Source: Pseudomonas sp. Leaf58 | Lineage (GTDB): Bacteria; Pseudomonadota; Gammaproteobacteria; Pseudomonadales; Pseudomonadaceae | Direction: 5' to 3' | NCBI RefSeq assembly: GCF_003627215.1 | Contig: NZ_CP032677.1 | Coordinates: 2,981,501-3,045,500 of the forward strand | Length of the DNA stretch: 64,000 nucleotides | Part shown: piece after piece, positions 4,054 through 22,014 of the stretch | Position numbering within the stretch: the first letter of the stretch is position 1 | Layout of the letters: every line of letters begins with the position of its first letter | The notes under the pieces: generated by a model | What the model was told of the DNA's origin: nothing | The model's input: only the letters and a program-made list of their open reading frames with translations | Database searches by the model: none | Position numbers and translations under genes: made by a program

Positions 4054-4632
4054 ATGAAGAGCAAACGCATGCTCGTAATCCTCGGCCACCCTTCGAACGA
4101 CAGCTTTTGCGGCGCTGTGTCCGAACGTTATGTCGAGGCCGCCACGCAAGCAGGCCATGAGGTGCGCCTGCTGCGCCTGGACACCCTGGATTTCGATCCG
4201 GTCTTGCACGATGGCTATAACCAGATCCAGTTGCTTGAGCCCGATTTGATCGACGCCCAGAACGACATTACCTGGGCCGAACACCTGACATTGGTGTACC
4301 CGATCTGGTGGGGCGGCATTCCGGCGTTGCTCAAGGGGTTCTTCGACCGCGTGTTTCTGCCCGGTTTTGCCTTCAAGTACCGCAAGGGCTCGCCCTTCCC
4401 GGATAAGCTGCTCAAGGGCCGCACGGCTCACCTTTTGGTGACCATGGACACGCCACCGTGGTACTACCGGTGGGTGTATCGCATGCCGGGCCTGCACCAA
4501 ATGCGCAAGACCACCCTGGAGTTCTGCGGCATAAAACCCCTGAAAACCCTGACCTTCGGTCCGGTATTGGGCTCCAAGCCGGAACAGCGTGAAGCCTGGC
4601 TCAAACAAGTCCAGGCAGTCGCCAGCTGCTGA
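4054..4632 (+). CDS. Flavodoxin-fold NAD(P)H:quinone oxidoreductase-like protein
   Basis: A 192-residue protein of the NQO/MdaB/YwrO flavodoxin-like family. It opens with a flavin-phosphate-binding strand-loop (MLVILGHPSNDSFCGAV) and has the family block YPIWWGGIPALLKGFFDRVFLPGFAF. The expected reaction is two-electron reduction of quinones or similar electrophiles using FMN/FAD and NAD(P)H in the cytoplasm. The ATG at 4054 is preferred because TGGAG lies six bases upstream; an in-frame alternative at 4027 lacks this. It is followed by the MerR gene and has its own MerR-type promoter, so it is probably co-induced with the biosynthetic operon. It could protect against, or act on, an intermediate or product; this is unproven. 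Confidence 0.85.
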   Translation: MKSKRMLVILGHPSNDSFCGAVSERYVEAATQAGHEVRLLRLDTLDFDPVLHDGYNQIQLLEPDLIDAQNDITWAEHLTLVYPIWWGGIPALLKGFFDRVFLPGFAFKYRKGSPFPDKLLKGRTAHLLVTMDTPPWYYRWVYRMPGLHQMRKTTLEFCGIKPLKTLTFGPVLGSKPEQREAWLKQVQAVASC

Positions 4633-4728
4633 TCGGCCCCGGTCGGGCCGTGCCCCTGCGCTGTCCAGCCGAGCCTCCCTGCTGTGACACCTTGTCCAAC
4701 TTGGCTTCCCACCCCCTGACGCTTGTGC

Positions 4729-4766
4729 AAAGATGTCGCGCGCCTGTACGAGCACGCGACATCTTT
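4729..4766 (+). terminator. Hairpin between the oxidoreductase and merR
   Basis: AAAGATGTCGCG (4729-4740) is a perfect 12-bp inverted match to CGCGACATCTTT (4755-4766) across a 14-base loop, followed by T and C. It may terminate the upstream gene or act as an operator before the MerR gene. Confidence 0.6.
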
Positions 4767-4798
4767 TCGCTTCTGATGCGTCAACAAAAGGGATTTTC

Positions 4799-5182
4799 AT
4801 GTACATCGGCAAAGCTGCCCAGCTATCGGGCACCACCGTCAAAAGCATTCGACATTACGAAGAAATCGGCCTGTTGCCCCCCCCGCAACGCGAAGGCAAG
4901 TACCGCATCTACAGCCAGCAAAGCGTAGAGCTGCTGACCTTCATCAAATGCGCTCAGCAACTCGGTTTCAAGCTCAAGGAAATGCAGGCCATTCTGCAGG
5001 ATCATCGCGGCCAGGAGCTGCCCTGGGATCTGGCCATGCAGGCCATCGATAACAAAAAGCAGGAATTGATGGGGCAGATCCAGGCCTTGCAGCAAGTGCA
5101 TGACGGCTTGGTTGAGTTTGAGCTGAGCCTCAAAGATGCTCAGATGCAATGCCAGTTCGAACACCTGGAAAAAGCCCGCTGA
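4799..5182 (+). CDS. MerR-family transcriptional regulator
   Basis: A 127-residue protein with an N-terminal MerR winged helix (MYIGKAAQLSGTTVKSIRHYEEIGLLPPPQRE...YRIYS) followed by a dimerising helix (about 80-112). There is no C-terminal metal-binding Cys cluster. Cys51 (TFIKCAQQLGF) falls where the redox/aldehyde-responsive MerR proteins AdhR and NmlR carry their conserved Cys. Another Cys lies near the end (QCQFEH). MerR proteins activate promoters with over-long spacers, and two such promoters bracket this cluster (3996-4025 and 20018-20047). I infer it is the cluster's activator, perhaps sensing an aldehyde, quinone or the product. Confidence 0.88.
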   Translation: MYIGKAAQLSGTTVKSIRHYEEIGLLPPPQREGKYRIYSQQSVELLTFIKCAQQLGFKLKEMQAILQDHRGQELPWDLAMQAIDNKKQELMGQIQALQQVHDGLVEFELSLKDAQMQCQFEHLEKAR

Positions 5183-5201
5183 ATCCGCTCCGCCGCCCCT
5201 G

Positions 5202-5229
5202 AACGGCCATGGCGCCCCGTGCCGTTTTC
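5202..5229 (+). terminator. Possible terminator of merR
   Basis: AACGGC (5202-5207) pairs with GCCGTT (5221-5226), followed by TTC, in the short gap between the convergent merR and MMPL genes. Confidence 0.45.
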
Positions 5230-5251
5230 AGCACGCAGGCGCCCCGGCGAT

Positions 5252-7861
5252 TTAGCCTGGCACAGTCTCACCCCCCGGCTGCTCGCCCTCTTGCACTGCT
5301 GGCTGCAGCACAATCGAGGCAAAGAACCACGGCGAAATCAGCGTGACCAACAAAATGGTCATGAAGCCGCTGGATGACAGCGCCAGTATCACCAATACAC
5401 CCAGGTCAATGACGGGTTTGTAGGCGGAGAACAGCAGCGCGACAAAGCCCATCGAGAAGATCACGACGTTGACCACCGTCGAGCGCCCGACGCCCTGCAT
5501 GGCCGCCAGGATGGCCTCGTCGATCTCGATGCCCTTCTGCACCAGCATCTTGATCCGTGACAGCAGGTGAACGGCGTAATCCACGACGCCCACCACCAGG
5601 AACGTCACCAATGTGGTACCGATGTTCAACTCGATATCCAACAGGTACATGCTGCCGTACACCGTCACCGACGTGGTCAGCAACGTCAGCATGCCGAGGA
5701 TGCCCAGGCGTACTGACTTGAGCCAGAACATCATCATCAAGGTCACGGCCAGCAACGCCAGCGAGAAGCTCAGCACCTGACCCTGGGTGATTTCCTGCAA
5801 CACCCCGGTCCATATGTACGGCGTACCGGCATGGGTGACTTGCAGGTTGGCCGGTTTGTTGATGACCAGCCAGGCGTCCAGTTTATCGAGCATCGCCTGG
5901 TAATCGCCCGCCACAGAGGAGGTCATGGTGAACAGCGTCACCGCCTTCGAGTAATCGGCATTGAGCACGTTCTGCAAGTCAGTGCCGCCACCGTTCTCGA
6001 ACATCATGATGTGTTGTTCGATGAGCGAGTTGCCATCGACATCGAAGGTCTCCGGTTTCCCGTCATCATCGACCACCGTCACCTGCTCCACCGCCTGCGG
6101 CACCCGCAGGAAAGCAGGGTTCATGTCGTTGAGCACGAGGTTCATGCGCTTGATGTAGGTCGCCACCGAATAGGTGTAACTCACGTTCGGCTGGGCCTTG
6201 ATGAACTGGTCCAGACGTTCGAGGAACTGCACGGTTTCAGTGGTCAGCGCGCCACGCGGAGTCTTGGTGTCGAAAGCGATCCAGCCCGGCGATGTCCCCG
6301 CGACTCCGGCCCGGTTGATGAACTCGTCGGACATCCGCACCGGGCTGTCCTTCTTGAAGTAGGCAATGCCCGAGTCTTCGATATCCACCTTGAACGTGAA
6401 CACCGTCATCATCGCCAACAACGGCAGGGTCACCAGCAATACCGGCTTGCGCCAGCGAATCAGCCAGGCACAGAACACCACCAGATAGTGGGAGATCAGC
6501 GACTCTTTGAGTTGCACTTTGCGCGGGACAGCATCTTTGCCCCAGATCGAAATCCACGCCGGAATCAGTAGCAACGAGATGATCAGCGCCGCCGTCAGGC
6601 CGATGGACATGAACACGCCAAAGTTGCGGATGCTGACAATGTTGTTGGTGGTGGAAATCAAGAACGTCGCAATAGTCGTGACCGTTGTCAAAACTACGGG
6701 CGTGACCATCAGGCGCTGGGTTTCACGGTTGGCTTCGCGGAAAGACTTACCCGAATTGAGCTGTTCGTAATACTCGGCCATGACGTGGATCGCGTCGGCA
6801 CAACAGATGGTGAACAGGAACACCGGCAAGACACTGGTGAGCAAGTCCATCGGCACACGCAGCAGCGCCATCAGGCCAAGGGTCCAGATGGTGCAGAACA
6901 GGATATTGAACAGCGGCAGCACCACGCCAAGTGGTTTGCGAAAGAAGAAAACCAGCAGAGAGGTCACCAACAGGAACACAATCGGGAACAGCATCGCCAA
7001 GTCGTGATCGATGATTTCCTGCTGGGCCGCAATGAAGATCGGCATGCCAGCGATGAACACCTCATCGGTGAATTCCGGGTGAGCGGCCTGGTACTTCGCG
7101 ATGATCTCGCGGACCTGGTGATAGGCACGCAACTGGGCCTGAGCGTCGTCCTGTTTGGTGCCCAGTTCGGCGACGACCATGGCGACTTTCTTGTCCGCCG
7201 AGACGACGCCACCGACCATCTGCTCGTTGCCCATGATCTGCGCTTCGACCTTGATCGGGTCCATATCCAGGGCGTGCAAGGTCTTGTGGATCCACAACTC
7301 GCCATCGGCACTCAAGCTGATGTTTTCCAGGTCAGCCATCGAGGCCATTTCCTGGATCGGGTTGAGCCGCTCGGCAAGAAAGCTCAGGAACTGCAGGTCA
7401 TGGCTGTCCCAGTGCCGGGCAATCCCATGGTCGCGCAGCGCTTTGGCGGCAGCGTAATCGTTCTGCGAAAAACCCTCGGCGAGGATCTGCACCAGCAAAC
7501 CCTGGGCATCATGGTCGCCACTGTGGAGTCCGACGATGCGCTGCAGTTCGACCCGGTCCTCATCGTTCGCCAGCATCAACCGGCGTATGGCCTGGGACAG
7601 CTCGAACTGGGCGTTCAGCGACGTGGTGTTGAAGACACTCTCGGGGTTGTTCAGCGCCACCATGACCGAGTCATACGTGCCAGTGAACTCGCGCTGCAAA
7701 TCAATGATCGTCTTGCGCGCCGGGTGAGTGTCCTTGAGCAGATACGGATTGGTGTCCGACATCAGCGCGCCGAGGGTGTAGGTGAAGTAGGCGGTGATCG
7801 CCACCAGCACGAACACAATTGCCCGCGCATAGCGCTCGACGAAGTTCAGGTATCTTTCCAT
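5252..7861 (-). CDS. RND superfamily (MMPL-type) exporter
   Basis: An 869-residue inner-membrane protein of the RND/MMPL family. There is an N-terminal transmembrane helix (YARAIVFVLVAITAYFTY), a large periplasmic loop, a bundle of membrane helices around residues 280-430, a second periplasmic loop, and a second bundle near residues 700-840 (SFSLALLAVTLMMMFWL, GTTLVTFLVVGVVDYAVHLLSRI, with the GxxxD-like relay). The symmetric layout is standard for RND transporters. Such proteins use the proton gradient to move hydrophobic molecules such as lipids, polyenes or hopanoids. It is the last gene of the biosynthetic operon, directly after the LolA-like carrier and outer-membrane barrel genes. The likely cargo is therefore the cluster product (inference). 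Confidence 0.9.
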   Translation of the reverse strand: MERYLNFVERYARAIVFVLVAITAYFTYTLGALMSDTNPYLLKDTHPARKTIIDLQREFTGTYDSVMVALNNPESVFNTTSLNAQFELSQAIRRLMLANDEDRVELQRIVGLHSGDHDAQGLLVQILAEGFSQNDYAAAKALRDHGIARHWDSHDLQFLSFLAERLNPIQEMASMADLENISLSADGELWIHKTLHALDMDPIKVEAQIMGNEQMVGGVVSADKKVAMVVAELGTKQDDAQAQLRAYHQVREIIAKYQAAHPEFTDEVFIAGMPIFIAAQQEIIDHDLAMLFPIVFLLVTSLLVFFFRKPLGVVLPLFNILFCTIWTLGLMALLRVPMDLLTSVLPVFLFTICCADAIHVMAEYYEQLNSGKSFREANRETQRLMVTPVVLTTVTTIATFLISTTNNIVSIRNFGVFMSIGLTAALIISLLLIPAWISIWGKDAVPRKVQLKESLISHYLVVFCAWLIRWRKPVLLVTLPLLAMMTVFTFKVDIEDSGIAYFKKDSPVRMSDEFINRAGVAGTSPGWIAFDTKTPRGALTTETVQFLERLDQFIKAQPNVSYTYSVATYIKRMNLVLNDMNPAFLRVPQAVEQVTVVDDDGKPETFDVDGNSLIEQHIMMFENGGGTDLQNVLNADYSKAVTLFTMTSSVAGDYQAMLDKLDAWLVINKPANLQVTHAGTPYIWTGVLQEITQGQVLSFSLALLAVTLMMMFWLKSVRLGILGMLTLLTTSVTVYGSMYLLDIELNIGTTLVTFLVVGVVDYAVHLLSRIKMLVQKGIEIDEAILAAMQGVGRSTVVNVVIFSMGFVALLFSAYKPVIDLGVLVILALSSSGFMTILLVTLISPWFFASIVLQPAVQEGEQPGGETVPG

Positions 7862-7894
7862 GAATGAGGGTTCCAGATGAATCGAGAGCGGCGC

Positions 7895-8731
7895 TTAGCG
7901 GGCAGACACGGCGTATTCCGGCAAGTCGCCGGCTTTCAGCCCGCGCTTGATCGCGGTCTGCGTGAACAGGCGGTCGTCCAGCGCGACGTTGTACTGCAAC
8001 TGGTTGAAGCGCAGCTGAGAGCGCGTACCGGCGATGAAGTCCTCGGTTTCGCTGAGGGTAATGCTGTCGATCTGGTCGATGGTTTCAGTCTTCAGGGTTC
8101 GCATCTGCTTGAACATCACACCTTTTACATCGAAGAAGTCCTGGCGCAGCACCAGTGAGTTCTTCTTGTCAACCCAGACCTTGAGCTTGTTGTAGCCGGT
8201 CTTGGCCAGCACGGCAGGCGTCGCCGGCTCACGCTCGATCACGTAGCAATCGCGGCCCTGCAACTGCTCTTCGCCAACCAGCGTTTGGCGATAGTCTTCG
8301 GCGCGAATCTTGTCGAGGTCGGCATAGGAGTAGTCGCTACCCATGAACGCCCCGCGTTTGTCGGTGGTGGAAATCCTTCGGGTCTGTCGGCTGACCGGCA
8401 AATACATCCATTGGCTGTCTTCGAGGCCCAGGGCCTCGCGCGGGTTTTCAATGTGGAAGGCGACGTCACGCACATCACTCGGCGCGGAGAAATACATGGT
8501 GAATTTGTCGCTGTCCGGGTAATCCTTTTGCAGGTAGCTGAACTCGCGGATGCGGCTGTTACCTTGCTTGTCGATCAGGATCAGGGACACCTGGGACATG
8601 AAGCTCTTGCCGTCATCGCGGTCCCGGGCCTGGCGAATGATGTCGTCGGCCGTGCGTGTTTCAGCTGCCATGGCGGCAGCGGCGCTCAGCAGCAGTGCGC
8701 TTACAGTCAGGGTCTTGAAGATGGGCAACAT
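7895..8731 (-). CDS. Periplasmic LolA-like outer-membrane lipoprotein-sorting-type protein
   Basis: A 278-residue protein with a Sec signal peptide (MLPIFKTLTVSALLLSAAAAMAAETR, cleavage near AMA-AE). The rest matches the 'outer membrane lipoprotein-sorting protein' family: DDIIRQARDRDDGKSFMSQVSLILIDKQGNSRIREF, then MYLPVSRQTRRISTTDKRGAFMGSDYSYADLD, and LKVWVDKKNSLVLRQDFFD. The fold is a half-beta-barrel that shields lipids, so it probably carries a hydrophobic cargo across the periplasm. The start has a signal peptide immediately after it; the frame extends upstream only by overlapping the barrel gene. It sits between an MMPL exporter and an outer-membrane protein, suggesting a dedicated export path. 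Confidence 0.85.
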   Translation of the reverse strand: MLPIFKTLTVSALLLSAAAAMAAETRTADDIIRQARDRDDGKSFMSQVSLILIDKQGNSRIREFSYLQKDYPDSDKFTMYFSAPSDVRDVAFHIENPREALGLEDSQWMYLPVSRQTRRISTTDKRGAFMGSDYSYADLDKIRAEDYRQTLVGEEQLQGRDCYVIEREPATPAVLAKTGYNKLKVWVDKKNSLVLRQDFFDVKGVMFKQMRTLKTETIDQIDSITLSETEDFIAGTRSQLRFNQLQYNVALDDRLFTQTAIKRGLKAGDLPEYAVSAR

Positions 8732-8781
8732 CGCGATTTCCTTTTCATTGTTTGAGTGGTTCGCACACCGCACCGGTGTGG

Positions 8782-10065
8782 TCAGAACAGATAACCGGCG
8801 GATAAGCGCACCTGGTCGCGGTTGGCGTACGCACCGAACTGGCGGTCGGGCTTGCCGAAGAACACATCGACTTCGAGCCCCAACTTGAGCCAGTCCACCG
8901 GTTTGTAGGTGAAGATCCCCTGAACGAAACTGTCGTCCTGCGCTGGCGGCGACATGCCGAAAACCAGACGGGTCTTGAGGCGATCCTGGAACTGCGAGCC
9001 TTCGGCAGACACAGTGAACAGGTCGTCGCGTTTGTCCTGGACCATGCCGGGCTGCCAGTCGAGCAGCCGCTGATGTTGCCACTGCATCGAGATCAGCCAG
9101 TCCCGCAATAGGTAATCGACGCCCAGCAGCGACTTGGTCATCGCCGTCTGGTCGCTGCCGTAAGCGCGGTAAGGATTGGTGACGCGCCAATTGTCGAAAT
9201 AGGCGACTTCACTGCGTACCACGATGCTGTGGCCGGCATCGATGGCCACACTTGAGCCGCCCATGGAATAGCGCGGGAATTGCCGTTCGAGGCGAATCAG
9301 GCCCTCTTCGGTCTGGCCTTCGACGGCGTAAACCGGGTCCTGTTGGCGGGCGTTGAGGGCAACGAAGCTGACATCCACCGTGCCGATCCGGCCGTTGGCA
9401 CTGGCGCCGTAACCGAAGCCACTGTGACCGTCATAACCGGGCCGCGAATCGACCACAAACATCTGCGGATCGGGTGTGGCAAAGATCGGTGCATCGAACT
9501 CGCTGCCGACGGCCGGCGCCTGGTTTTTCACAAAATCAGTGATCACCAGCGCTTCCAGCTCCCACTCGGCGACCGGCTGCAGCAGGCGAATCATCGGCAC
9601 GGCGATGCGGCTGTCTTCCAACAGACCGATCACACCCTCGCGATAATCCAGCGGGTTGATCTGATCGAGCACCCGTAATTCATCTGCACGCCCCCACACC
9701 ACCTGCTGCCAGCCCACCGTCAGCTCGCCGTCACCGACGTAGAGCCCCCAGTAAAGGTGCCGCCAATCGGCAGTCGCCCGGTAATCGTCCCGGGCTTGCG
9801 CGCTGTATGGGTTGTTGCCGTCATAACGGAAGTCGTAACGGGCTCGGCCCTTGGCCTTGTAGTAGCCGCTGTCCCAGGCATCCTCCAGGCTGAACTTGAG
9901 GTACACGGCCTTTTGCGTGACCTGGTCGTCACCGTGCAGACGCACGGCCGTGGCAACGCCGATCTCCGCTTCATGATGCTCCGGCAACCACTCGGCGATC
10001 GCCACTGGCGAGCCGAGGCTGACCAGCGCGGCCAAAAGGCCGCGGTTCAATCCCAGTCGAGCCAT
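8782..10065 (-). CDS. DUF1302-like outer-membrane beta-barrel protein
   Basis: A 427-residue protein with a signal peptide (MARLGLNRGLLAALVSLGSPVAIAEWLP). It then has alternating amphipathic strands typical of outer-membrane barrels, for example RHLYWGLYVGDGELTVGWQQVVWGRADELRVLDQINPLDYRE, and a terminal aromatic residue (VRLSAGYLF). The WGRAD...DxxNPxD block is characteristic of DUF1302-like proteins, which often neighbour MMPL transporters. The start at 10065 is three bases below the end of the preceding SDR gene. It is probably the outer-membrane element of the export path. A specific pore function cannot be shown from sequence. Confidence 0.75.
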   Translation of the reverse strand: MARLGLNRGLLAALVSLGSPVAIAEWLPEHHEAEIGVATAVRLHGDDQVTQKAVYLKFSLEDAWDSGYYKAKGRARYDFRYDGNNPYSAQARDDYRATADWRHLYWGLYVGDGELTVGWQQVVWGRADELRVLDQINPLDYREGVIGLLEDSRIAVPMIRLLQPVAEWELEALVITDFVKNQAPAVGSEFDAPIFATPDPQMFVVDSRPGYDGHSGFGYGASANGRIGTVDVSFVALNARQQDPVYAVEGQTEEGLIRLERQFPRYSMGGSSVAIDAGHSIVVRSEVAYFDNWRVTNPYRAYGSDQTAMTKSLLGVDYLLRDWLISMQWQHQRLLDWQPGMVQDKRDDLFTVSAEGSQFQDRLKTRLVFGMSPPAQDDSFVQGIFTYKPVDWLKLGLEVDVFFGKPDRQFGAYANRDQVRLSAGYLF

Positions 10066-10067
10066 GG

Positions 10068-10832
10068 CTACATTCCCAACCCGGCACCGCCGTCGATCAT
10101 CAGGCTTTGCGCCGTGACACCACTCGCCTGCGGGCTCGCCAGATAACGAACCATGGCCGCCACTTCGTCGCCCTGAATGAAGCGCCGTAGGGGCAACTTC
10201 TTCTTGGCATTGCGCAGGATTTGCTCGTGGGTGATCCCGGCGATGCGCGCTTGAGCCGCCAATTCGCCTTGCAGCATCGGTGTGTCGATCCAGGCGGGCA
10301 GGATGGCATTGACGGTAATTCGCCGTGGCGCCAGGTCCAGCGCCAAGGCTTTGGTCATACCGATGATGCCGTGCTTGGAGGCGCAGTAAGCGGTGTTGCG
10401 GACCTTGCCCGCTCGGCCGAGGATCGACGACATGTTGACGATCCGCCCACCATCCGCCAACAGTGGCAGGCACAACGAGGTGACGTAAAAGGTGCCGTTG
10501 AGGTTGATCGAAATTACCTTGTGCCAGTTGTCGAGGTCTTCGGGTTCGTTCTCGTCGCAGACCCCGGCGCTGTTGACCAGCACATCGACAAAGCCGACCC
10601 GGTTGGCCAGGCCCTTGAACAGAAGTTGCAGGCTGGCGAGATCGGCGATGTTCGCTTGATGGGTTTCGATGCGAGCGGCAAATTCGCCCTCGGTGACCCA
10701 CCTCTGCAAGGTTGCCAGATCCCGATCAAGCAAGATCAAAAGGTGCTCGGCCTGGGCTGCAAAATTTTCCGCGACGGCGCGGCCAATACCATTGGCCGCG
10801 CCGGTAATCACAATCGTGCGTGCCTGGCTCAT
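10068..10832 (-). CDS. Short-chain dehydrogenase/reductase (probable beta-ketoacyl reductase)
   Basis: A 254-residue classical SDR. It has the cofactor loop TGAANGIG (about residues 11-18), NSAG (about 87-90), the catalytic Ser in VNMSSILG and the YxxxK motif YCASK. It is related to, but clearly different from, the FabG-like reductase immediately upstream, with which it overlaps by four bases (ATGA). Having two ketoreductases suggests that two different keto positions are reduced, or that this one acts on a late intermediate. It ends three bases before the barrel gene, so it is in the same transcript. Confidence 0.85.
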   Translation of the reverse strand: MSQARTIVITGAANGIGRAVAENFAAQAEHLLILLDRDLATLQRWVTEGEFAARIETHQANIADLASLQLLFKGLANRVGFVDVLVNSAGVCDENEPEDLDNWHKVISINLNGTFYVTSLCLPLLADGGRIVNMSSILGRAGKVRNTAYCASKHGIIGMTKALALDLAPRRITVNAILPAWIDTPMLQGELAAQARIAGITHEQILRNAKKKLPLRRFIQGDEVAAMVRYLASPQASGVTAQSLMIDGGAGLGM

Positions 10833-11566
10833 AACATTTTCAATCCACCGTTGACGGACAAGACTTCGCCCGTGACGTACAGGCCGCGCTCGGCCAGATA
10901 CAGCACCGCGTCGGCAATTTCTTCAGGCCGGGCGAACCGTTTGATCAACAGCCGCGACTGGATTTCCTGCTCATGGGCGCCGACCAGTGCTTCGCTCATG
11001 TCGGTGCTGACGATGCCGGGAGCCACCGCGTTGACCCGGATGTTGCGCGGCGCCAACTCCACCGCCAGTGCGCGTGTCAATGCTTCTACACCGCCTTTGG
11101 CGGCGGCGTAGTTGCTCTGGCCCTTGCCGGGCTTTTGCGCGGCCACCGAACTGAGGTTGACGATGCACCCGCTGCGTTGGCGCATCATGCAGGGCAGCAC
11201 CTGCTGACAGCACAACAACGTGCCGACCAGGTTGGTCTGGATGACCTCGGTGATGTCGCTCAACGATTGCGTGGCGAGCAAACCGTCACGGGTAACACCG
11301 GCGTTGTTGACCAACAAGTCGATACGCTCGAAACGTTGCTCGACCCGTTCAAAAAACGCCTGAATGCTCTGCGCATCCTTGATATCACACTGCACGGCCA
11401 GGCACTCCCGGCCGAGCCCCTCGACCTGCGCCTGCAAAGCAGCGGCTGACGCCTCGTCACGGACATAACTGAAGGCAACCTGATAACCCGCGCCGGCCAG
11501 GGCCAGCACGATGGACTTGCCAATGCCGCGACTGCCGCCGGTCACGACAGCTATTTTCTGAGTCAT
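10829..11566 (-). CDS. FabG-like 3-oxoacyl-ACP reductase
   Basis: A 245-residue protein with all FabG hallmarks: TGGSRGIG (about 9-16), NNAG (about 89-92), the catalytic Ser (VNLSSVAA), YAAAK, and PGIVSTDM after the active site. It is expected to reduce beta-ketoacyl-ACP to beta-hydroxyacyl-ACP with NADPH in the cytoplasm. It lies between the transaminase-reductase fusion and the second SDR, in the same operon as the ketosynthases and ACP. This supports processing of beta-keto groups during chain assembly. No dehydratase gene accompanies it in the cluster. Confidence 0.9.
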   Translation of the reverse strand: MTQKIAVVTGGSRGIGKSIVLALAGAGYQVAFSYVRDEASAAALQAQVEGLGRECLAVQCDIKDAQSIQAFFERVEQRFERIDLLVNNAGVTRDGLLATQSLSDITEVIQTNLVGTLLCCQQVLPCMMRQRSGCIVNLSSVAAQKPGKGQSNYAAAKGGVEALTRALAVELAPRNIRVNAVAPGIVSTDMSEALVGAHEQEIQSRLLIKRFARPEEIADAVLYLAERGLYVTGEVLSVNGGLKML

Positions 11567-11575
11567 GACCGCTCC

Positions 11576-14446
11576 TTAAAGTGAGTTTTGAGTTTTGAAT
11601 TGCGCGAGGGTGAAGCCGTGGGTCGCGGCCAGTGCGCGGACCTGCTGAACTTGCTCACGGCTGATATCGCCGTAGGAGCCGTGCTGGCTCATGCCCGACA
11701 AGCCCATCAACACCGACTCGGCCATGCACGCATACAGCTGACCTTTTTTCAGATAGGCCCGCACGTTGGGCGCCAGGCCGTCGTCAAACGGCGTCTGGAC
11801 GATGCCGCCGTGCATGTAGAGCACGTCTTCGCGTTGGCTCGGCAGGTCTTGATGGACGTTCAGCGGCACGGCGATATCGCAAATCACGCTGCGCTCGGCG
11901 AAATGTTCGGCACCGAGGAACGGCTGAGGCGCATTGGCAGCGCACAGGACAATCCGTGCGCCCTTGAGGGCGTCGAGATCGTGGGTGACCGTGATGAAGG
12001 CGTTCGCGCCAAGGCGCTCATCCACCAGACGGGCGATGTGCAAACCGAGGTCGGCTTTTTGTCCATGTAAGTGCAACAAGCCACGAAAACCATCAAGGGT
12101 CAGCAGTCGCTGCGCCAACCGGTCGTGTTCGGCCGTGCCTTTGAGGATCGAACGGGCCGCGTCGGCGTAAATCTGTTGCGCAGTTTTCTCCAGGCGCCGA
12201 ACCGAGCCGTCACGACCGCTGCCAATCAGAATCAGGTGATCGACGGTGGCGGACAGCACCGAGGCATAGGTCGACGCAACGTTACCGGCGGCACCGACAA
12301 CGGCAGCGGTTTGCTCGCGCAGTGCCAGACCTTGCTGTACACAGCCTTGCTCGATGGCTTCGAGCCCCATGCCGATGGTCAGGGCATTGCCGGACGTCAG
12401 GGCCATGTCGGCAATCTTCAGCGCCTGACAATTGTTGGTGACGATCGAGGTGTACATCCCGAGGCCGGCGATGTTGCAGCCATCGGCGCGGGCATCGGTG
12501 ACACGCCTGCCGACTTCTTCGCGAATGCTGTCCAGGTCACCGCTGAGGATGTACTCGGCCATGGCATCCGAATCCATGCACAGCGGGTACAACGTGAACT
12601 CCACCGCCATGCCGAGGCGTGACCGAATGATCACCGGGCCGACTGGCACAGCGCGGCGTTCAGGCTTGGTGCGATTGATGAACGTGCGTTTTTGTTCCGG
12701 GCTCAGGGCTGCCAGCGAGGGATCGACGTCACCGAGGATATCGGCATCGATCAGGTGGTTGATGAACGCTACCCGAGCGACGACTTCGACCTTGGCATCG
12801 ATGTTTTCAACGGGCTCGGCCCCCCGAAAATCGTCTTGACGGGCTGGCACGGCGGCAATCGAGTCCGCGCAGATACCCGCCGCCAACGGCAACGCATCGC
12901 CACGGCGCAGCATGTCGCAGACCCGTTGCAGGGCTCCGATCAGCCCGTCGATTTCGCTCAGGGTGATACAGGCTGGCGGCTCCAGGCGAATCACGTTGGA
13001 GTTGCTGCCCGACGGTGCTACCCGCAACGCTTCGAATTGCAACAGGTAACCGGCGATCAAGTAACCCAAGGCATCGTTGTACTGGGCCGACGCCTGTACC
13101 AGCGAGCTGCTGACACTCAAGTCATGCAATTCCAAACCCACCAGCAAGCCACGCCCGCGCACATCGGCAATCACATCCGGATAGGCCATCTTCAGTTCAT
13201 TGAGCGAGGCTTTGAGGTAGGCGCCCTTGGTGCGTATGTCTTTGAGCATCGCGTCGTCATTGGCGAACAACCGGCGCAATGCCGACAGCGCGATATGGCA
13301 GGACGGATCGTCCTCGGCGAAGGTCGAGCTGTGGATGTAGCTGAACTCGCCTTCGTAGTGGCTGCTGCGGATCACCGTCGCGGCGATTTTCATCAAGCCG
13401 CCGCCGAGGGCCTTGGACAGGCAGTAATAGTCGCCTTGCAGGTTGAACTGGCTGCTGGCAAGAAACGTCCCGGCGCGACCAAAACCCGACTGCACTTCAT
13501 CGACCACCAGCGGGCATTGTTGCTCGTTACACAGCTTGCGCAGCCCCAGATAGAACTCGGCCGCGAACTCGTTGATACCGCCTTCACCCTGAATCGGTTC
13601 CATCAACACGGCGGTAATCGCACTGAACGGCAGTTGCAGCACGTTCAGGTGTTCGCCGTCCCATTGCAGGCTCAACCAATGGTGCGTGTGCCGGGCCGGC
13701 AATTCCTGCAACTGATGGGGCTGCTGTGGGTCGATGAACTCGACGTTCAGACCAAAACGGGCAAACGGCGCGCGGTACTGACGGCCATAGGTCAGTTGCA
13801 CGGTATTGACCAATTTGCCGTGGAAGCTGCCGCGCAGGGCGACGAATACCGGTTCGATGTGCAACTGCGCCAGGTTGTGTTGGCGAACGGCTTCAACCAC
13901 CTGACGCAAGGTCACGCTGTTCAGGGTGGCCGGCAGGACACCTGCAGGCAGGTCGAGGTCGGCCACATCCAGCTCGCGGTAAGCGCGTTCGCTGGCGGTC
14001 AGGCGGGCCAGGGTGAAATCGATGTCGTCGAACTGCTTTTTCAGGCTCTTCTGGCGACGAAACTCCGCGTGCTTGACGGCGATTTCCACCGCCTCCGCGC
14101 CACTGTTGGAGAAAGTCGAAATATAACGTTCGGTGTTCTTCAGTTCGCGATTGAAGGCGTCGCTGAGCTCTCGCCCCAATTGCCCGGCCGCACCGCGGAT
14201 CGACATTTGTGCGTTGAACGGCACGTCGCTGCGCAGCAGCGCACATAGCTGATCGACAAACTGTGGGTCGTTGTGGCCGAACAGTGCCGCACCGTAACCG
14301 CCGAGAAAGTCGGTGACCGTGACCATATCGCCCTTGGGGTTGCGGTAGAACAACTGGCTACCGAGGGCGCGCTGAAATTCAATCTCCAGGCCCAGTGCCT
14401 GGAGCAGGCCGACGAATTTGGGCCGAACGAAATCGCGATAATCCAT
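11576..14446 (-). CDS. Bifunctional class III aminotransferase / acyl-ACP reductase-like fusion
   Basis: About 956 residues. Residues ~1-500 are a class III PLP aminotransferase: TFSNSGAEAVEIAVK (111-125) for PLP phosphate binding, MEPIQGEGG (282-290), VDEVQSGFGRAG (315-326) with the PLP-ring Asp, and the Schiff-base Lys345 in CLSKALGGG. Residues ~560-956 resemble long-chain acyl-ACP reductases: LTSGNALTIGMGLEAIE (687-703), a Rossmann loop VVGAAGNVAS (716-725) and ICDIAVPLNV. Together they would reduce an ACP-bound acyl chain to an aldehyde and transaminate it to a primary amine. The ATG at 14446 is chosen because AAGGGA lies ten bases upstream; the ATG at 14455 is too close to it. Substrate length is unknown. 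Confidence 0.85.
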   Translation of the reverse strand: MDYRDFVRPKFVGLLQALGLEIEFQRALGSQLFYRNPKGDMVTVTDFLGGYGAALFGHNDPQFVDQLCALLRSDVPFNAQMSIRGAAGQLGRELSDAFNRELKNTERYISTFSNSGAEAVEIAVKHAEFRRQKSLKKQFDDIDFTLARLTASERAYRELDVADLDLPAGVLPATLNSVTLRQVVEAVRQHNLAQLHIEPVFVALRGSFHGKLVNTVQLTYGRQYRAPFARFGLNVEFIDPQQPHQLQELPARHTHHWLSLQWDGEHLNVLQLPFSAITAVLMEPIQGEGGINEFAAEFYLGLRKLCNEQQCPLVVDEVQSGFGRAGTFLASSQFNLQGDYYCLSKALGGGLMKIAATVIRSSHYEGEFSYIHSSTFAEDDPSCHIALSALRRLFANDDAMLKDIRTKGAYLKASLNELKMAYPDVIADVRGRGLLVGLELHDLSVSSSLVQASAQYNDALGYLIAGYLLQFEALRVAPSGSNSNVIRLEPPACITLSEIDGLIGALQRVCDMLRRGDALPLAAGICADSIAAVPARQDDFRGAEPVENIDAKVEVVARVAFINHLIDADILGDVDPSLAALSPEQKRTFINRTKPERRAVPVGPVIIRSRLGMAVEFTLYPLCMDSDAMAEYILSGDLDSIREEVGRRVTDARADGCNIAGLGMYTSIVTNNCQALKIADMALTSGNALTIGMGLEAIEQGCVQQGLALREQTAAVVGAAGNVASTYASVLSATVDHLILIGSGRDGSVRRLEKTAQQIYADAARSILKGTAEHDRLAQRLLTLDGFRGLLHLHGQKADLGLHIARLVDERLGANAFITVTHDLDALKGARIVLCAANAPQPFLGAEHFAERSVICDIAVPLNVHQDLPSQREDVLYMHGGIVQTPFDDGLAPNVRAYLKKGQLYACMAESVLMGLSGMSQHGSYGDISREQVQQVRALAATHGFTLAQFKTQNSL

Positions 14447-14484
14447 GACAGTCATATCCCTTGAAAGTAAAAAAGAGGCGGTAG

Positions 14485-15696
14485 TCAGCGGCAGTCCTGA
14501 GTGACCTTTGCGCTGTAGAGCACTTGATAGGCGGCGCTGAATCCGTTGTCGTCGCGGTTCAGCACCAGGCAATGCGCAAGGCTCGCGGCGTGGGGCGCGC
14601 CCTGAATAAACGGCAGGTTCGCCACTGGCTGCTGCAAACCGGCAATCGGCGGCACGCTTTGGGCCTGCAATGCGCAACGCGCAAGCATCAGATCCACCAG
14701 GCTCGGCGCCGCGCTGAGAATGCCGTTGATCGCCAACCCGCTGGTGATGTGCGAGGCGCGTGCAAGGGCCAGCGTCTGGCACAACACGCGGTCTTTGTGC
14801 GCATCGCCGGTGCCGCTGCACACCAACACATCGGTTGGGCTGTCGGGCAGGCTCAAGCGACCGAGGGTGGCATGGGCCGTCATGTCGGCGAGGCACGCCT
14901 GAGGACCGGCCGGAAGGTCTTCGCGCCGGCGCAGCACCAATGCTGCCGCTCCCTCCCCGGCAATGCCGCCGGTGCCCCGAAGGTCAAACGGCAGCAGAGT
15001 GTTCGAGCCGTTGGCGCTGATGACACCCGCCTGGACCAACCCGGACAGCGCCAGGGCATCCAGCTCGCTGCCCGCACCGACAACGATTGCCGCGTCAATT
15101 CGGCCATCCTGCAAAGCGGCCGTAGCCTCACGCAAGGCTGCCAGGTTGCCGGCGACACCTTGCATATAGGCGTTGCACTCACCCACCAGTTTCAGCGCCA
15201 GGCTGGTGACACCCAGCAAGCAGTTGCTCAAGCCTTTGAGCACCAGAAAAGGGTCCTGGGCACGGTCTTGCAGGATCCGTTTGGCGAACGCCGCCATGTC
15301 GGCGACGCCGTCCTGCCGACAGCCGAGCAACAACTCGGCATAGGATTCCAAAGACGGATGGGTGTAGCCGCCCTGACAGCAATACAAACCGAAACGGACA
15401 TCCGGCTGCTCATCGGCCAGGCCTGCTTCTTCCAACGCCTGACGTACCGCGCTGATACCCCAGATCACTGCCGGCGTGCAGTAACGCTGAAGGTTTTGCG
15501 CAAGGTCTTGTCGGCTGCGTTGGTGGTCCTGATCCTGAATTTGCCCGAACGCCACCACGCGTTCGCTGCTGAACCGTCGGGCGTTCAGCGCCGTAATTGC
15601 ACTGCGCCCTTCGGTTGCGGCCGCCCAGAAAGACTCGACACCCCAGCCGCTGGGCAACACGCAACCCGCACCGGCAATCGCGACCGCCTGTTTCAT
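14485..15696 (-). CDS. Ketosynthase-like chain-length-factor-type protein (no active-site Cys)
   Basis: A 403-residue thiolase-fold protein of the beta-ketoacyl synthase family. It starts MKQAVAIAGAGCVLPSGWGVESFW and retains the GAGSELDAL and GTGGIAGEGAAALVL blocks. The nucleophile elbow reads ...NAYMQGVAGN, with Gln where condensing enzymes have Cys. The His motifs are also lost (CSGTGDAHKD, no NKSxxGH). This matches the KS-beta or chain-length-factor partner of type II polyketide synthases, which pairs with an active KS. It overlaps the active KS just upstream by four bases (ATGA at 15693-15696), so the two are probably translated together as a heterodimer. Confidence 0.8.
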   Translation of the reverse strand: MKQAVAIAGAGCVLPSGWGVESFWAAATEGRSAITALNARRFSSERVVAFGQIQDQDHQRSRQDLAQNLQRYCTPAVIWGISAVRQALEEAGLADEQPDVRFGLYCCQGGYTHPSLESYAELLLGCRQDGVADMAAFAKRILQDRAQDPFLVLKGLSNCLLGVTSLALKLVGECNAYMQGVAGNLAALREATAALQDGRIDAAIVVGAGSELDALALSGLVQAGVISANGSNTLLPFDLRGTGGIAGEGAAALVLRRREDLPAGPQACLADMTAHATLGRLSLPDSPTDVLVCSGTGDAHKDRVLCQTLALARASHITSGLAINGILSAAPSLVDLMLARCALQAQSVPPIAGLQQPVANLPFIQGAPHAASLAHCLVLNRDDNGFSAAYQVLYSAKVTQDCR

Positions 15697-16991
15697 CGCG
15701 GCCCCTCTTGGTACTTGCCCAGCGCCAGTGAAGTGTTGAGGCCGCCGAAACCGAAGGAGTTGCTCAGGGCAACGTCGACCTTGCGCTCGACCGCTTGATG
15801 GGCGCAGTAGTCGAGGTCGCATTGTTCGTCGGCATCATGCAGGTTCAGGGTCGGCGTGACCCGATCATCCCGGCACGCCAGGGCCGTGAGCATGAACTCC
15901 GGTGCTCCGGCGGCCGCAATCAGGTGGCCGAACTGGGATTTGTTGGCCGTCACCAGTAACCGCCGATAATGGTCGCGCTCGGCGAACAGGGTCTTGATCG
16001 CCAGGGTTTCGGCGGCATCGTTGAGGGGTGTCGACGTACCGTGGGCATTGATCAGATCGACCTGTTGCGGCTCCAGCCCGGCATCCGTCAGGGCCGCCTG
16101 CATCGCCAGCACCGCTCCCCGGCCCTGCGGGTCGGGTGCGGTGATTTTGTAGGCATCCAGGCTGCTGCCGAAACCCAGCACTTCGGCGTACGGCGTTGCC
16201 CCTCGGGCGAGCGCCCGTTCGAGGGTTTCGAGCACTACAAAACCACCGCCTTCACCCGCAATCAAGCCACTGCGATGGCGGTCGAACGGCCGACACAGTT
16301 CGGTGCCCCAACGCTGTTCGCTGCTGGCGGCGCCGAGCAGATACAGCGCGGTCATGGTGTCCAGGCTCAGCACCGAATCGGCGCCCCCGGCAATGGCCTG
16401 CTCGACCTCGCCGCGACGGATCATCTGGAATGCATTGCCGATAGCCTGGGACGCTCCCGCGCAGGCGCTGCTGATATTGATCACCGGGCCTTCACTGCCG
16501 ATGCCATCGGCAATCACCCGCGCAAGGCGGTCGTTGCTCTGACACAGTGAACTGTCAGGATCGACCTGCGCCTGTCGCGCCATCAATTGAGCCCAGGACG
16601 GCGCCTGCGCCGGGTTATCCGCCAGGCTGAGCAGCATGTCCTGCAAACGATGTGCAGGTGCGCCGGACGCTGACAATACCGCCGCGCCACGCAACTGTTC
16701 GGGGCTCAGACCACTATCGGCAATGGCTTGGGTAGCCGCGACCCAACCAAAGCGGGTGCGTTTTTCCAGCGACAATCCCCAGGCCGGATGGTCTTTCAAG
16801 TGTGCCGGCATCAAGCCCATATCCACGGGCGCTGCGTAACGCACGGGGAACGCACCCGCCTCGACGCCTTGCGGTTGCCATGGCCGAATGCAATGCTCGC
16901 CGGCCAACATTCTTTGCCACATGGACTGCCACTCGAAACCGAAGCCGGTGACGGCGCCCATGCCCGTGATCACGATCCGTGTGGGGCTCAT
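15693..16991 (-). CDS. Beta-ketoacyl-ACP synthase (active KS, second pair)
   Basis: A 432-residue FabF-type ketosynthase with an intact triad: Cys177 in ISSACAGAS, His317 in INAHGTST and His356 in NKSQFGH. It also has the terminal NSFGFGGLN glycine loop. It condenses malonyl-ACP with a growing acyl chain. The start MSPTRIVITGMGAV at 16991 overlaps the end of the preceding KS-like gene by four bases, and its own end overlaps the next KS-like gene. Upstream in-frame codons fall inside the previous gene and are not needed. Together with 14485-15696 it forms a KS/CLF-type pair. Confidence 0.9.
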   Translation of the reverse strand: MSPTRIVITGMGAVTGFGFEWQSMWQRMLAGEHCIRPWQPQGVEAGAFPVRYAAPVDMGLMPAHLKDHPAWGLSLEKRTRFGWVAATQAIADSGLSPEQLRGAAVLSASGAPAHRLQDMLLSLADNPAQAPSWAQLMARQAQVDPDSSLCQSNDRLARVIADGIGSEGPVINISSACAGASQAIGNAFQMIRRGEVEQAIAGGADSVLSLDTMTALYLLGAASSEQRWGTELCRPFDRHRSGLIAGEGGGFVVLETLERALARGATPYAEVLGFGSSLDAYKITAPDPQGRGAVLAMQAALTDAGLEPQQVDLINAHGTSTPLNDAAETLAIKTLFAERDHYRRLLVTANKSQFGHLIAAAGAPEFMLTALACRDDRVTPTLNLHDADEQCDLDYCAHQAVERKVDVALSNSFGFGGLNTSLALGKYQEGPR

Positions 16992-18070
16992 GGGTAACTC
17001 TCCATTGTCTCTGTGTCCGAGGATGTTCTGGCCAGCAGCACCGCGCCCCAATGCCCGCCTCGGCTATGTTCGAGCAACAGCGTGTAACGGCTGCAATCCA
17101 GTGCCCAGGTCACAGCGATTTCGCTAAGCAAGGCGCTGGCGCCCAAGTCACCTACCAACGCCTTGGAGTGTTCGAGGGTGTGCCCGGATAGGGTAAACAA
17201 CGCGGCAATCTGCGGATCCTGTGCATCGGCGACGACTTGCCCGACATCGCTGAGGCACAGTTTTTCGTTGCTCAAAGCACGCTCAATGACGTCGCGACCG
17301 ACCGCCAGTCCACGCTCGGGTTGCACGCTGTAACCACGGGCAAACCCGGCAATACGCAACGCAGATTGAGCACCGCTGCCCGGGTTGGTCGTCAGCAACA
17401 GTGCCGCAGCACCTTCGCCGAAAACCCACGGGCTGGGGTTCACAGGTGGGTGAGTAGCGTCACGCAGGTACAACGCCGGGGTGATGTTCGGACTGCTACT
17501 GACGACGACGGCAGCATCGGCACGGCCTTCGCTCAGATGGGCAGCGGCCTCCATCAAAGCATCCAGCCCCGCATTGCCCTGGGAGCAAAAACCGCCCATG
17601 GGACCCTTGCAACGCAAGGCCTCAGCCGCGTGGGCCATGACGCTGCTGTTGAGCATCATCAGCGCATGCAGCGGCGGTGTGTGGGCAAAGAATTGCGCCA
17701 ACAGATCTGCCGGTTGTGCGCCAATGGCCTGCACTGCATCCCAGCACGAGCTGGGGCCATCCACTTCCGGAATGGCAGCGGTCAATGCGATCCGCTCGTC
17801 GGGCAGTTCCAGCCCACGCAAGGTCTCGGCGAGACGGCCGGCGCAATACAGCAGGCGCGCGCCCTGAGGCTCAAGGCTGCGGGACAGTTTGCGGTCGTAC
17901 ACACCAGCTGGCAAGGCGGGCGCTGCGACACAATGGGCCAGACGTACCGGGTCAAAATCCAGCGGTTGCGCGGCCTGAGGTTGACTGCCACGAGACGCAC
18001 ATTCAGTTCCGGCGGCGTTGAGTACCGACGCAGCAGTGATATAAACAGCGGTTGAATTGGATCTGGTCAT
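16988..18070 (-). CDS. Divergent ketosynthase-like protein (no active-site Cys)
   Basis: A 360-residue protein recognisable as KS-like by the block GFCSQGNAGLDALMEAAAHLSEGRADAAVVVSSS and by WVFGEGAAALLLTT. The elbow Cys of true KS is best aligned with Gln in SQGNAG. The HGTxT segment is replaced by VADAQDP, and NKSxxGH by ALVGDLGAS. It is shorter than usual (about 410) and lacks the C-terminal FGFGG loop. It sits directly after the first active KS (two bases apart), so it is likely its chain-length-factor or scaffold partner. It might also select the starter unit; that cannot be decided from sequence. Confidence 0.75.
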   Translation of the reverse strand: MTRSNSTAVYITAASVLNAAGTECASRGSQPQAAQPLDFDPVRLAHCVAAPALPAGVYDRKLSRSLEPQGARLLYCAGRLAETLRGLELPDERIALTAAIPEVDGPSSCWDAVQAIGAQPADLLAQFFAHTPPLHALMMLNSSVMAHAAEALRCKGPMGGFCSQGNAGLDALMEAAAHLSEGRADAAVVVSSSPNITPALYLRDATHPPVNPSPWVFGEGAAALLLTTNPGSGAQSALRIAGFARGYSVQPERGLAVGRDVIERALSNEKLCLSDVGQVVADAQDPQIAALFTLSGHTLEHSKALVGDLGASALLSEIAVTWALDCSRYTLLLEHSRGGHWGAVLLARTSSDTETMESYP

Positions 18071-18071
18071 G

Positions 18072-19346
18072 TCATGCCCTGCCCAGCACCAACGAACTGT
18101 TCACGCCACCAAACCCGAAGGAGTTGGAGAGCACGACATCGATCGGTTGCTGCAACGGTTCGCAAAGGAATTTCAACTCCGGAAATTCGGATTTATCCGG
18201 CTGAAAATTGAGGGTCGGCAAGGCCACGCCCAACTGAATGCTCATCAACGACAGCACCGCCTCAATGGCACCACTGCCGGCCAACGAATGCCCTACGGCA
18301 GATTTGTTGGCGGTGAACGTCATCTGCTCCAGGGTTTCGCCGAAGACCTGCGCCAGGCCCAGGGCTTCGCAACGGTCATTGGCCTGTGTCGACGTACCGT
18401 GAACATTCACATGGTCCACAGCCGCACTGGTCAGTTCGGCATCGACCAGGGCCGCCGTCATGCAGGCGGCATACTTGCTGCCGTCGCGGCTGCTGGAGGT
18501 GATTTTCTCTGCCTCGCACAGATTCGCGTAACCCAGCACCCGGCCCAGCGAACAGGCCTGACGACGCTCGGCATGCTCGCGGGATTCCAGCACCAACAGC
18601 GCCGCCCCTTCACTCAGCACAAAACCGCAGCGGTCCGGCATGAACGGCCGGCTCTGTTCTTGTGGGGAAAAGTCCACTCGCTGGCAGAGTGCGCCCAGCC
18701 CATCAAAGCTGTAGTAGGACAATTCATGGGCCATCAACTCCACCGCGCCACACAACGCCAGGTCGATCTCGCCACGGGCGATCGCTCGATAGGCGCTGCC
18801 GATGGCCATGGTGCCGGCGGCACAGGCATCGGAATGTGTGGAGATATGGTCACGTACACCCAGCCATTTGGCGAGATGGCGGGTTTGCTGATCAACCCGC
18901 CGGGCAAACGCCCCACCGCTGAGGGTGTGGTTATCCAGGTACTGGTCGAGATCGACCCGCCCCTGATCGTCCATATAACGGCTGGCGTCCCGCAAATCAC
19001 CGCTCACGCAATGTTTGTTGGCCCCGACGAAAATACCGCTGGCGACTCGGGCAAATGCGCCGTCGGCCAACCCGGCATGGGCCAGCGCCTGACGGGCCAC
19101 GTAATGCGCCAGCCATTCCTGGCGGGAGGTGGTCTGCAGGTCGCCCGGAAAGGCCGCCGCGATGACCTGCCATTGTTGCTCATCGACAAATCCGGCCGCC
19201 GGGTTCGCAAACCCCAGTTCGACAAACGCCGGGTGCTGGCGAATGCAGGAACGGTTTTCGCTGATCGTCGTGAACAGCGAGGCCGCATCCAGTGCCGTGG
19301 GAGCCACCAGGCCATAGCCGGTGACCAGAACCTCTCGGGCCTGCAT
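18072..19346 (-). CDS. Beta-ketoacyl-ACP synthase (active KS, first pair)
   Basis: A 424-residue ketosynthase with catalytic Cys175 (HSDACAAGT), His316 (NVHGTST) and His353 (NKSAVGH), and the NSFGFGGVN loop. The ATG at 19346 follows a G-rich Shine-Dalgarno-like run; a TTG three bases upstream is the only other start. It lies 11 bases after the ACP gene and two bases before the KS-like gene. The order ACP-KS-CLF-KS-CLF suggests two heterodimeric condensing enzymes sharing one carrier protein, as in highly reducing type II systems such as aryl polyene clusters. Confidence 0.9.
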   Translation of the reverse strand: MQAREVLVTGYGLVAPTALDAASLFTTISENRSCIRQHPAFVELGFANPAAGFVDEQQWQVIAAAFPGDLQTTSRQEWLAHYVARQALAHAGLADGAFARVASGIFVGANKHCVSGDLRDASRYMDDQGRVDLDQYLDNHTLSGGAFARRVDQQTRHLAKWLGVRDHISTHSDACAAGTMAIGSAYRAIARGEIDLALCGAVELMAHELSYYSFDGLGALCQRVDFSPQEQSRPFMPDRCGFVLSEGAALLVLESREHAERRQACSLGRVLGYANLCEAEKITSSSRDGSKYAACMTAALVDAELTSAAVDHVNVHGTSTQANDRCEALGLAQVFGETLEQMTFTANKSAVGHSLAGSGAIEAVLSLMSIQLGVALPTLNFQPDKSEFPELKFLCEPLQQPIDVVLSNSFGFGGVNSSLVLGRA

Positions 19347-19357
19347 CAAGGCACCCC

Positions 19358-19927
19358 CTACGCCGAAGCCTTCAACTGGGTGGCCGCGTAATGCTCAACC
19401 AACAGACGCGAGATCGAGTCACCGTCCAGAGGGGTCAGGCGAGCACTGCAACCGCCACACACCACTTGTTTGCGTTCATTGAGTTGGGCATGAACCGCGC
19501 CACACTCAGGGCAGGTCTCGGGGAGGTAGTTGAAAACGTTATGGCATTGCTGCGCCCAGTTACGCACGGTGGTGGCCGAGAAGACATCGCCCGGCTGCAT
19601 GCCCACGTGCAACTGGCCCGGCGCATAAGCGCTGAGGCTCTGCTCCAGCAAGGCCACGCCGTCCTGCGTGATTCGGCCTTTTTCGACAAACCGGGTGGCG
19701 TCGCCGAACACCGCTACCGCGTGATCCAGCACGCTGGTTTTCGGCAAGGTGCAACCGTACTGACGGCCCAGCTGGAAGCTCAGGTCGACGATGTCCAGCG
19801 AGTCGGCGCTGAGGTCGTCAACGATACTGCTGTGCTCTGCCACGTCGCCCCTATCCAACACCAGCAACTGCGCAAGAATCTCCTGTGTACTGCTGATAAC
19901 GCTGTCCAATTCCAACGGATTATTCAT
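19358..19927 (-). CDS. Acyl carrier protein fused to a C-terminal zinc ribbon
   Basis: A 189-residue protein. Residues ~1-80 form an ACP with the phosphopantetheine attachment Ser43 in LSADSLDIVDL. A linker follows, then a zinc-ribbon-like module with Cys139-x2-Cys142 and Cys157-x2-Cys160 (CPECG ... CGGC). Ordinary ACPs are about 80 residues, so the extension is notable. It is the first gene of the minus-strand operon, with an AGGGA ribosome-binding site and a MerR-type promoter about 90 bp upstream. It should carry the chain through both KS/CLF pairs to the reductase-transaminase. No phosphopantetheinyl transferase is encoded here, so a host enzyme must activate it. Confidence 0.88.
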   Translation of the reverse strand: MNNPLELDSVISSTQEILAQLLVLDRGDVAEHSSIVDDLSADSLDIVDLSFQLGRQYGCTLPKTSVLDHAVAVFGDATRFVEKGRITQDGVALLEQSLSAYAPGQLHVGMQPGDVFSATTVRNWAQQCHNVFNYLPETCPECGAVHAQLNERKQVVCGGCSARLTPLDGDSISRLLVEHYAATQLKASA

Positions 19928-20017
19928 TGATTGTTTCCCTACAAAAGCCGCATTGAATGAATAAAGTCACCGGGCCAAAAAAGCTGTTTTCAGGCCAGAT
20001 CTATCGAGGGCCGGGAG

Positions 20018-20047
20018 TCTAAAGTCTCCCCCTAAGGGGAGAGTCAA
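20018..20047 (-). promoter_or_regulatory. MerR-type promoter/operator of the biosynthetic operon
   Basis: Read on the minus strand: TTGACT (20047-20042), an 18-bp spacer (CTCCCCTTAGGGGGAGAC) and TTTAGA (20023-20018). The spacer contains the near-perfect palindrome CTCCCC-TTAG-GGGGAG. It shares TTGACT, spacer length and spacer pattern with 3996-4025, which supports recognition of both by the cluster's MerR protein. Confidence 0.7.
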
Positions 20048-21851: not shown

Positions 21852-21866
21852 TTGCCGTGACGAAAA

Positions 21867-21900: not shown

Positions 21901-22014
21901 AGGCCCACCCAGTTAAAACTAAAAAGCATATAAATATTTACTTATATTATTTTTAGAGATAACAAAATATCTCTATAAGTGAGCCATCAGGAGCGCATCC
22001 AGCGCCTCGACCCG

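Follow-up and report, generated by a model that had tools for sequence, protein, structure and literature searches.

A koreenceine-type kecA-kecK operon in Pseudomonas sp. Leaf58 and a linked, probably regulatory, MerR gene

Gene content of the locus and its described relatives

Koreenceines are antibiotics that resemble the hemlock alkaloids and are made by a type II polyketide synthase operon of Pseudomonas. Koreenceines A to C are tetrahydropyridines and koreenceine D is a chlorinated amide; all have been isolated, and deletion of kecA-kecK in Pseudomonas koreensis abolishes them (Lozano et al. 2019; PMC6498172). In that description, kecA encodes an acyl carrier protein (ACP), kecB and kecD encode ketosynthases (KS), kecC and kecE encode chain-length factors (CLF), kecF encodes an aminotransferase with a C-terminal domain resembling acyl-ACP reductases (AAR), kecG and kecH encode reductases, and kecI, kecJ, and kecK have roles in transport. 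Two clades of the cluster were distinguished, A in P. koreensis/mandelii and B in P. putida, and the clade B strain SWI36 gave koreenceine C (PMC6498172). We analyzed a stretch of 64,000 nucleotides from Pseudomonas sp. Leaf58 (contig NZ_CP032677.1, positions 2,981,501 to 3,045,500; here called the window, with coordinates counted from its first letter). The best explanation of the region as a whole is that it holds the koreenceine operon kecA-kecK of the P. putida type, that the amine released by KecF closes to a tetrahydropyridine, and that a linked MerR-family gene is the probable switch of the operon. We put the probability of this reading at roughly 95%.

Eleven co-directional genes lie on the minus strand from position 19927 to 5252, a span of 14,676 bp; they are tightly packed, with several start/stop overlaps. 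Their products fall, in order, into the families ACP, KS, KS-like, KS, KS-like, class III transaminase fusion, short-chain dehydrogenase/reductase (SDR), SDR, a protein of no family, LolA_like, and MMPL. This is the kec set in the kec order (ACP, KS, CLF, KS, CLF, transaminase-AAR fusion, two reductases, three transport genes), and kecA-kecK of P. koreensis CI12 has the same 11 genes, gene order, and predicted functions (PMC6498172). The cluster itself is therefore already known, having been published as the koreenceine cluster. A preliminary description, made from the letters of the window, dissected it correctly without recognizing it: the one ACP, two Cys-His-His KS, two KS-like proteins with Gln, two reductases, transaminase fusion, LolA-like protein, and MMPL protein that it listed are all present by family matches and residue motifs, and its statement that no described cluster has this set is contradicted by the published kecA-kecK and its isolated products (PMC6498172).

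The ACP gene kecA (19358 to 19927) encodes 189 amino acids (aa) and matches PF00550 at 3.2e-7. The ketosynthase alpha genes kecB (18072 to 19346; 424 aa) and kecD (15693 to 16991; 432 aa) match PF00109/PF02801 and have Cys-His-His motifs. Both CLF-like genes encode Gln at the nucleophile position: kecE (14485 to 15696; 403 aa) matches PF00109 only, and kecC (16988 to 18070; 360 aa), for which searches of Pfam and NCBIfam gave no match, has the same place and length as its SWI36 counterpart. The fusion gene kecF (11576 to 14455; 959 aa), whose homologue is PP_2782, is followed by kecG (10829 to 11566; 245 aa), a ketoacyl-ACP reductase gene, and kecH (10068 to 10832; 254 aa), a second SDR gene (PF13561, 5.3e-53). 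KecG is nearly identical to PpFabG4/PP_2783 of KT2440 (PDB 9ng1; 236 of 244 residues, 96.7%). The last three genes are kecI (8782 to 10065; 427 aa), encoding a probable outer-membrane protein, kecJ (7895 to 8731; 278 aa; PF17131, 2.7e-50), and the MMPL/RND transporter gene kecK (5252 to 7861; 869 aa; PF03176, 3.5e-23).

The P. putida clusters PP_2777-PP_2787 of KT2440 and that of SWI36 have the same gene content, and their published size is 14.7 kb (PMC10829540, PMC5458470, PMC12490732). The SWI36 proteins measure, from KecA to KecK, 189, 424, 360, 432, 403, 956, 245, 254, 417, 278, and 869 aa (same sources). Nine of these 11 lengths equal those of the window, and the remaining two match in-frame alternative starts there, at 14446 for a 956-aa KecF and at a TTG at 10035 for a 417-aa KecI. 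The SWI36 cluster occupies a different genomic site, and its neighbors in the published Table 1 (ORFs 1 to 11) differ from those in the window.

A scan of sequenced contigs with KecF found 13 loci, all titled as Pseudomonas, and KecF at 73% identity or more occurs in 20 of 398 Pseudomonas-genus genomes, the Leaf58 genome counted. We compared 18 kec loci, including the window. All 11 genes are present in order in 17 of them, and the 18th (L010) is cut by the end of its contig. KecF of the window is 95 to 98% identical to that of L009, L010, and L052, and 81% identical to that of P. mandelii 6A1. The ACP motif DSLDI is invariant in all 18 loci, as are four cysteines (CPxC...CxxC) in a C-terminal extension of KecA that resembles a zinc ribbon (sub-threshold Pfam match, 0.002). 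KecB and KecD keep their Cys, His, and His motifs in 18 of 18 loci, and Tyr-x-x-x-Lys is retained in KecG and KecH wherever the gene is present. The Gln of KecC (SQG) and that of KecE (MQG), which leave both proteins CLF-like in having no Cys nucleophile, are each found in 17 of 18 loci. The exceptions are damaged-looking copies: kecC of L018 stops after 118 aa, and kecE of L052 has a deletion near its start (around 7150).

A MerR/NQO pair and a promoter motif shared with kecA

Two plus-strand genes, convergent with the operon and outside it, adjoin kecK. The first (4054 to 4632; PF02525, 3.4e-40) encodes a flavodoxin_2-family NAD(P)H oxidoreductase, here NQO, and the second (4799 to 5182; PF13411, 4.1e-18, with PF00376 and PF09278) encodes a MerR-family regulator. 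The MerR protein is below the cut-offs of the subfamilies compared (CueR best, at 74.2 bits against 147.4; CadR-PbrR, SoxR, and NmlR also below), and its Cys51 and Cys118 are kept in all 25 rows. At the nucleotide level, the window resembles L009 (96%) and L052 (97%) between ~3940 and ~20180, beyond which the likeness ends, save for a shorter shared stretch further left, and therefore the shared unit includes the NQO gene and merR. The preliminary description had counted the two genes in the unit; the similarity span and the linkage given below bear this out, although the genes stand on the opposite strand, outside the operon. The unit is bracketed by a 36-bp direct repeat (plus strand, 3709 to 3744 and 20187 to 20222; 89% identity between copies), which may be a trace of insertion; searching the genome with a pattern made from these two copies, 3 mismatches being allowed, gave no further copy.

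Near-identical motifs precede the two transcription units. The predicted operator/promoter of kecA, TTGACTCTCCCCTTAGGGGGAGACTTTA, lies at 20020 to 20047 on the minus strand, and that of the NQO-merR pair, TTGACTCTACCGTAAGGGGCAGACTTTA, lies at 3996 to 4023 on the plus strand. Each has TTGACT as its -35 box, and a palindrome fills the 20-bp spacer behind it. Promoters activated by MerR proteins have this layout, and the window combines a MerR helix-turn-helix with a dyad in a -35/-10 spacer of the 19- to 20-bp class.

The consensus and the genome-search patterns derive from the two sites of the window itself, which match by construction; the information lies in the absence of a third site and in the recurrence of the motif in other genomes. 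A search that allowed up to 3 mismatches gave no third site in the Leaf58 genome (6.34 Mb in two contigs), and a reversed-pattern control gave 0. In all 18 loci the consensus occurs 108 to 121 bp before kecA (1 to 7 mismatches), and it occurs 56 to 59 bp before the NQO gene in 28 of 28 rows, 24 of them distinct (2 to 6 mismatches). Sixty shuffles per row, preserving base content but not dinucleotides, never gave fewer than 8 mismatches. Exactly two sites were found in 12 of 16 chosen genomes, one in three, and none in one (G186). A strict scan for a 20-bp spacer with a dyad recovered the kecA site in 16 of 18 loci, missing L053 and L057, and also missed many NQO sites. The start of merR was considered as a third operator site and rejected, with 11 to 16 mismatches in 30 of 30 rows. 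On this sequence evidence, the linked MerR protein is the probable activator of both kec and the NQO gene, acting through these palindromic promoters.

Could the regulator and oxidoreductase be a common Pseudomonas pair that kec adjoins by chance, the dyad before kecA being fortuitous or read by another regulator? A MerR homologue is found in 153 of the 398 genomes, and 133 of these lack a kec-type KecF. Beside kec, the NQO gene was not found in L053 or L084, nor does it stand there in G402, where the distant NQO gene has a partial MerR-like neighbor of its own (39% over 61 aa). Yet this unlinked NQO gene of G402 (65% identical) still carries the motif, 59 bp ahead of its ATG. The MerR homologue is present in all 20 genomes with kec: in 19 of them it shares a contig with kecF at a distance of 6.4 to 6.5 kb, and in the 20th (G035, split contig) it stands beside kecK. 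With the motif also present before kecA in every locus compared, chance adjacency seems unlikely. In G238 (L067, 9014 to 10691) the NQO-merR pair is retained at 99 to 100% identity next to a kecK remnant of 18% of the full length (97%), which suggests that the kec operon was lost there; this genome has one further motif site with no clear gene after it.

Expression data on a koreenceine producer bear on a regulatory role of the MerR protein. Deletion of kec lowers azoR more than 270-fold, and kecA-K expression falls 12.5-fold at low inoculum (PMC9239112); azoR, possibly the kec-adjacent gene, encodes a flavodoxin_2-domain reductase. Both drops would fit product-responsive control. A possible, still tentative, extension is a self-amplifying circuit in which the MerR protein would sense redox or electrophile stress from the alkaloid or aldehyde through its conserved cysteines and would induce kec together with an oxidoreductase that protects the producer; a unit of 13 genes, not 11, would then have been inherited and moved. 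MerR control of kec was not found in the literature searched, on text passages without figures or supplements, although PMC9584964 mentions both koreenceine and MerR; the main text of PMC6498172, figures and supplements aside, likewise has no mention of the MerR/NQO pair. Novelty may lie in this regulatory link and in the conserved zinc-ribbon-like tail of KecA. Koreenceine shapes rhizosphere communities, inhibiting Bacteroidetes and strongly changing expression in neighbors (PMC9239112). If the proposed control is true, a dedicated MerR protein and two mapped operators make the koreenceine switch directly testable in P. putida.

Proposed biosynthesis and the identity of the product

In the published proposal, a decanoyl-type starter and two malonyl units give a C14 chain, KecG and KecH act as reductases, KecF converts the thioester to an aldehyde and then to an amine, and non-enzymatic cyclization yields the tetrahydropyridine (PMC6498172). 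By likeness to this scheme we infer the product, the order of steps, and export in Leaf58. KecB/KecC and KecD/KecE would be the KS/CLF pairs, adding two malonyl units to a C10 starter with KecA as the carrier; KecG and KecH, with a host dehydratase and enoyl reductase, would process the beta carbons so that a 5-keto group remains. Release of the chain as an aldehyde would fall to the C-terminal half of KecF and transamination to its N-terminal half, and the amine would close on the 5-keto group to give the tetrahydropyridine antibiotic, with KecI, KecJ, and KecK thought to serve in its export. Dehydratase, acyltransferase, and phosphopantetheinyl transferase (PPTase) steps are expected from the host, and a PPTase-family gene is present elsewhere in the genome.

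The match to kec thus lends support to much of what the preliminary description had proposed, namely, KS/CLF chain building, reductive release, transamination, export, and dependence on host enzymes. Its end product, a primary amine located at or outside the outer membrane, is not supported: the published koreenceine products make that amine the expected intermediate, which would react with a keto group of its own chain to form a cyclic imine that is secreted, and kecA-kecK is a close match to a characterized cluster with a different product, the outcome that the description itself had named as refuting (PMC6498172).

KecF matches PF00202 at residues 45 to 512 (5.4e-57), giving the transaminase plus AAR-like architecture. 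Its C-terminal half has no significant match of its own (Shikimate_DH, 0.0045), and the acyl-ACP reductase label carried over from the preliminary description rests on literature about homologues. Transaminase activity has been demonstrated for the KecF homologue PP_2782 (PMC10829540), and the KecG homologue PP_2783 is active on medium-chain but not short-chain substrates (PMC10829540, PMC5458470, PMC12490732). KecI, for which Pfam and NCBIfam searches gave no family, has a signal-like N terminus, a C-terminal Tyr-Leu-Phe, and an all-beta model of very low confidence (mean pLDDT, 33.9). These features fit the outer-membrane barrel of the preliminary description without proof, and we regard that assignment as probable.

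It is improbable that the locus is a relative of the koreenceine cluster with another product, for example an open-chain amine of fatty or polyketide origin or a compound of other ring size or chain length: the gene set and key residues are the same as in kec, and SWI36, a clade B strain with matching protein lengths, yielded koreenceine C (PMC6498172). What speaks for such a product is that sequence alone cannot fix it, that Flavobacterium johnsoniae is not inhibited by SWI36, unlike by P. koreensis (PMC6498172), and that conservation among the enzymes is lowest for KecC, at 59% identity to P. mandelii 6A1 and 58% to L057. Chain-length factors can alter chain length.

Several further points bear on the koreenceine reading or parts of it, most of them against it. 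Koreenceine C is the only koreenceine in the clade B report (PMC6498172). The CI12 cluster belongs to clade A, and the clade A-type locus of P. mandelii 6A1 is 59 to 81% identical to the window per Kec protein; therefore, the product may differ in chain length or oxidation state. In a KecF tree of 29 rows, whose root is unsure owing to a single very long outgroup branch, the window falls with L052, SID14000, and P. tehranensis in a 4-row group (96/100); the 21 rows that include P. mandelii group elsewhere (93/86), and L053/L054 and L057 are separate. This grouping fits the published clades, and in a tree without the KT2440 KecF it is consistent with a place of the window in clade B. PP_2777, the KT2440 homologue of KecA, has an unusual predicted structure and is inactive in a reconstituted fatty acid synthase (PMC10829540, PMC5458470, PMC12490732); the Cys4 tail may explain this behavior, and our KecA model is of poor quality (mean pLDDT, 45.0). 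The PP_2782 assays covered transaminase activity, with AAR activity outside them (PMC10829540). As to control, no MerR gene is named among the 16 mutants reported to have lost inhibition, as described in the cited passages (PMC6498172), for which the 2,500 mutants may have been short of saturation, and the G186/L057 sites are degenerate, with 0 pattern matches, 7 and 6 mismatches to the consensus, and no match to each other.

PigE and TamH, of the prodigiosin and tambjamine pathways, likewise combine reductive release and transamination in one protein, with the domain order of PigE opposite to that of KecF (PMC10829540). A PigE-type profile and a CrmG chain are among the best matches of KecF. 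An aryl-polyene or prodigiosin-type pathway, which the PigE match and the resemblance of the KS/CLF, LolA-like, and MMPL genes to aryl-polyene clusters might suggest, can be set aside with near certainty given a PigE profile score of 261.6 against a cut-off of 850, the reversed domain order, the lack of a dehydratase or ammonia-lyase gene in the operon, and the near-complete match to kec.

Distant fusions and neighboring genes

KecF-like fusions also occur in other gene contexts. At L055 (8204 to 11245), a fusion of 36% identity, with no KS genes found nearby, lies beside genes for a fatty acid desaturase and a phosphatidylglycerol lysyltransferase C-terminal-domain protein, possibly another amine-lipid pathway. 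At L056 (2 to 16087), a fusion of 29% identity accompanies LolA_like, MMPL, and two AMP-binding ligase genes. In L059 (1138 to 15747), a PigE-profile fusion of 870 aa shares its stretch with matches of KS-like and LolA-like type, an epimerase-like protein, and a fatty acyl-AMP ligase; 7 of 398 genomes have such fusions, ~33% identical.

In the window, the left flank of the unit carries a LuxR gene found in 2 of 398 genomes. Next to kec on the other side, plus-strand genes from 20472 to 23981 encode an NtaA/DmoA-family FMN-dependent monooxygenase, an FMN reductase-like protein, and an acyl-CoA dehydrogenase-like protein.

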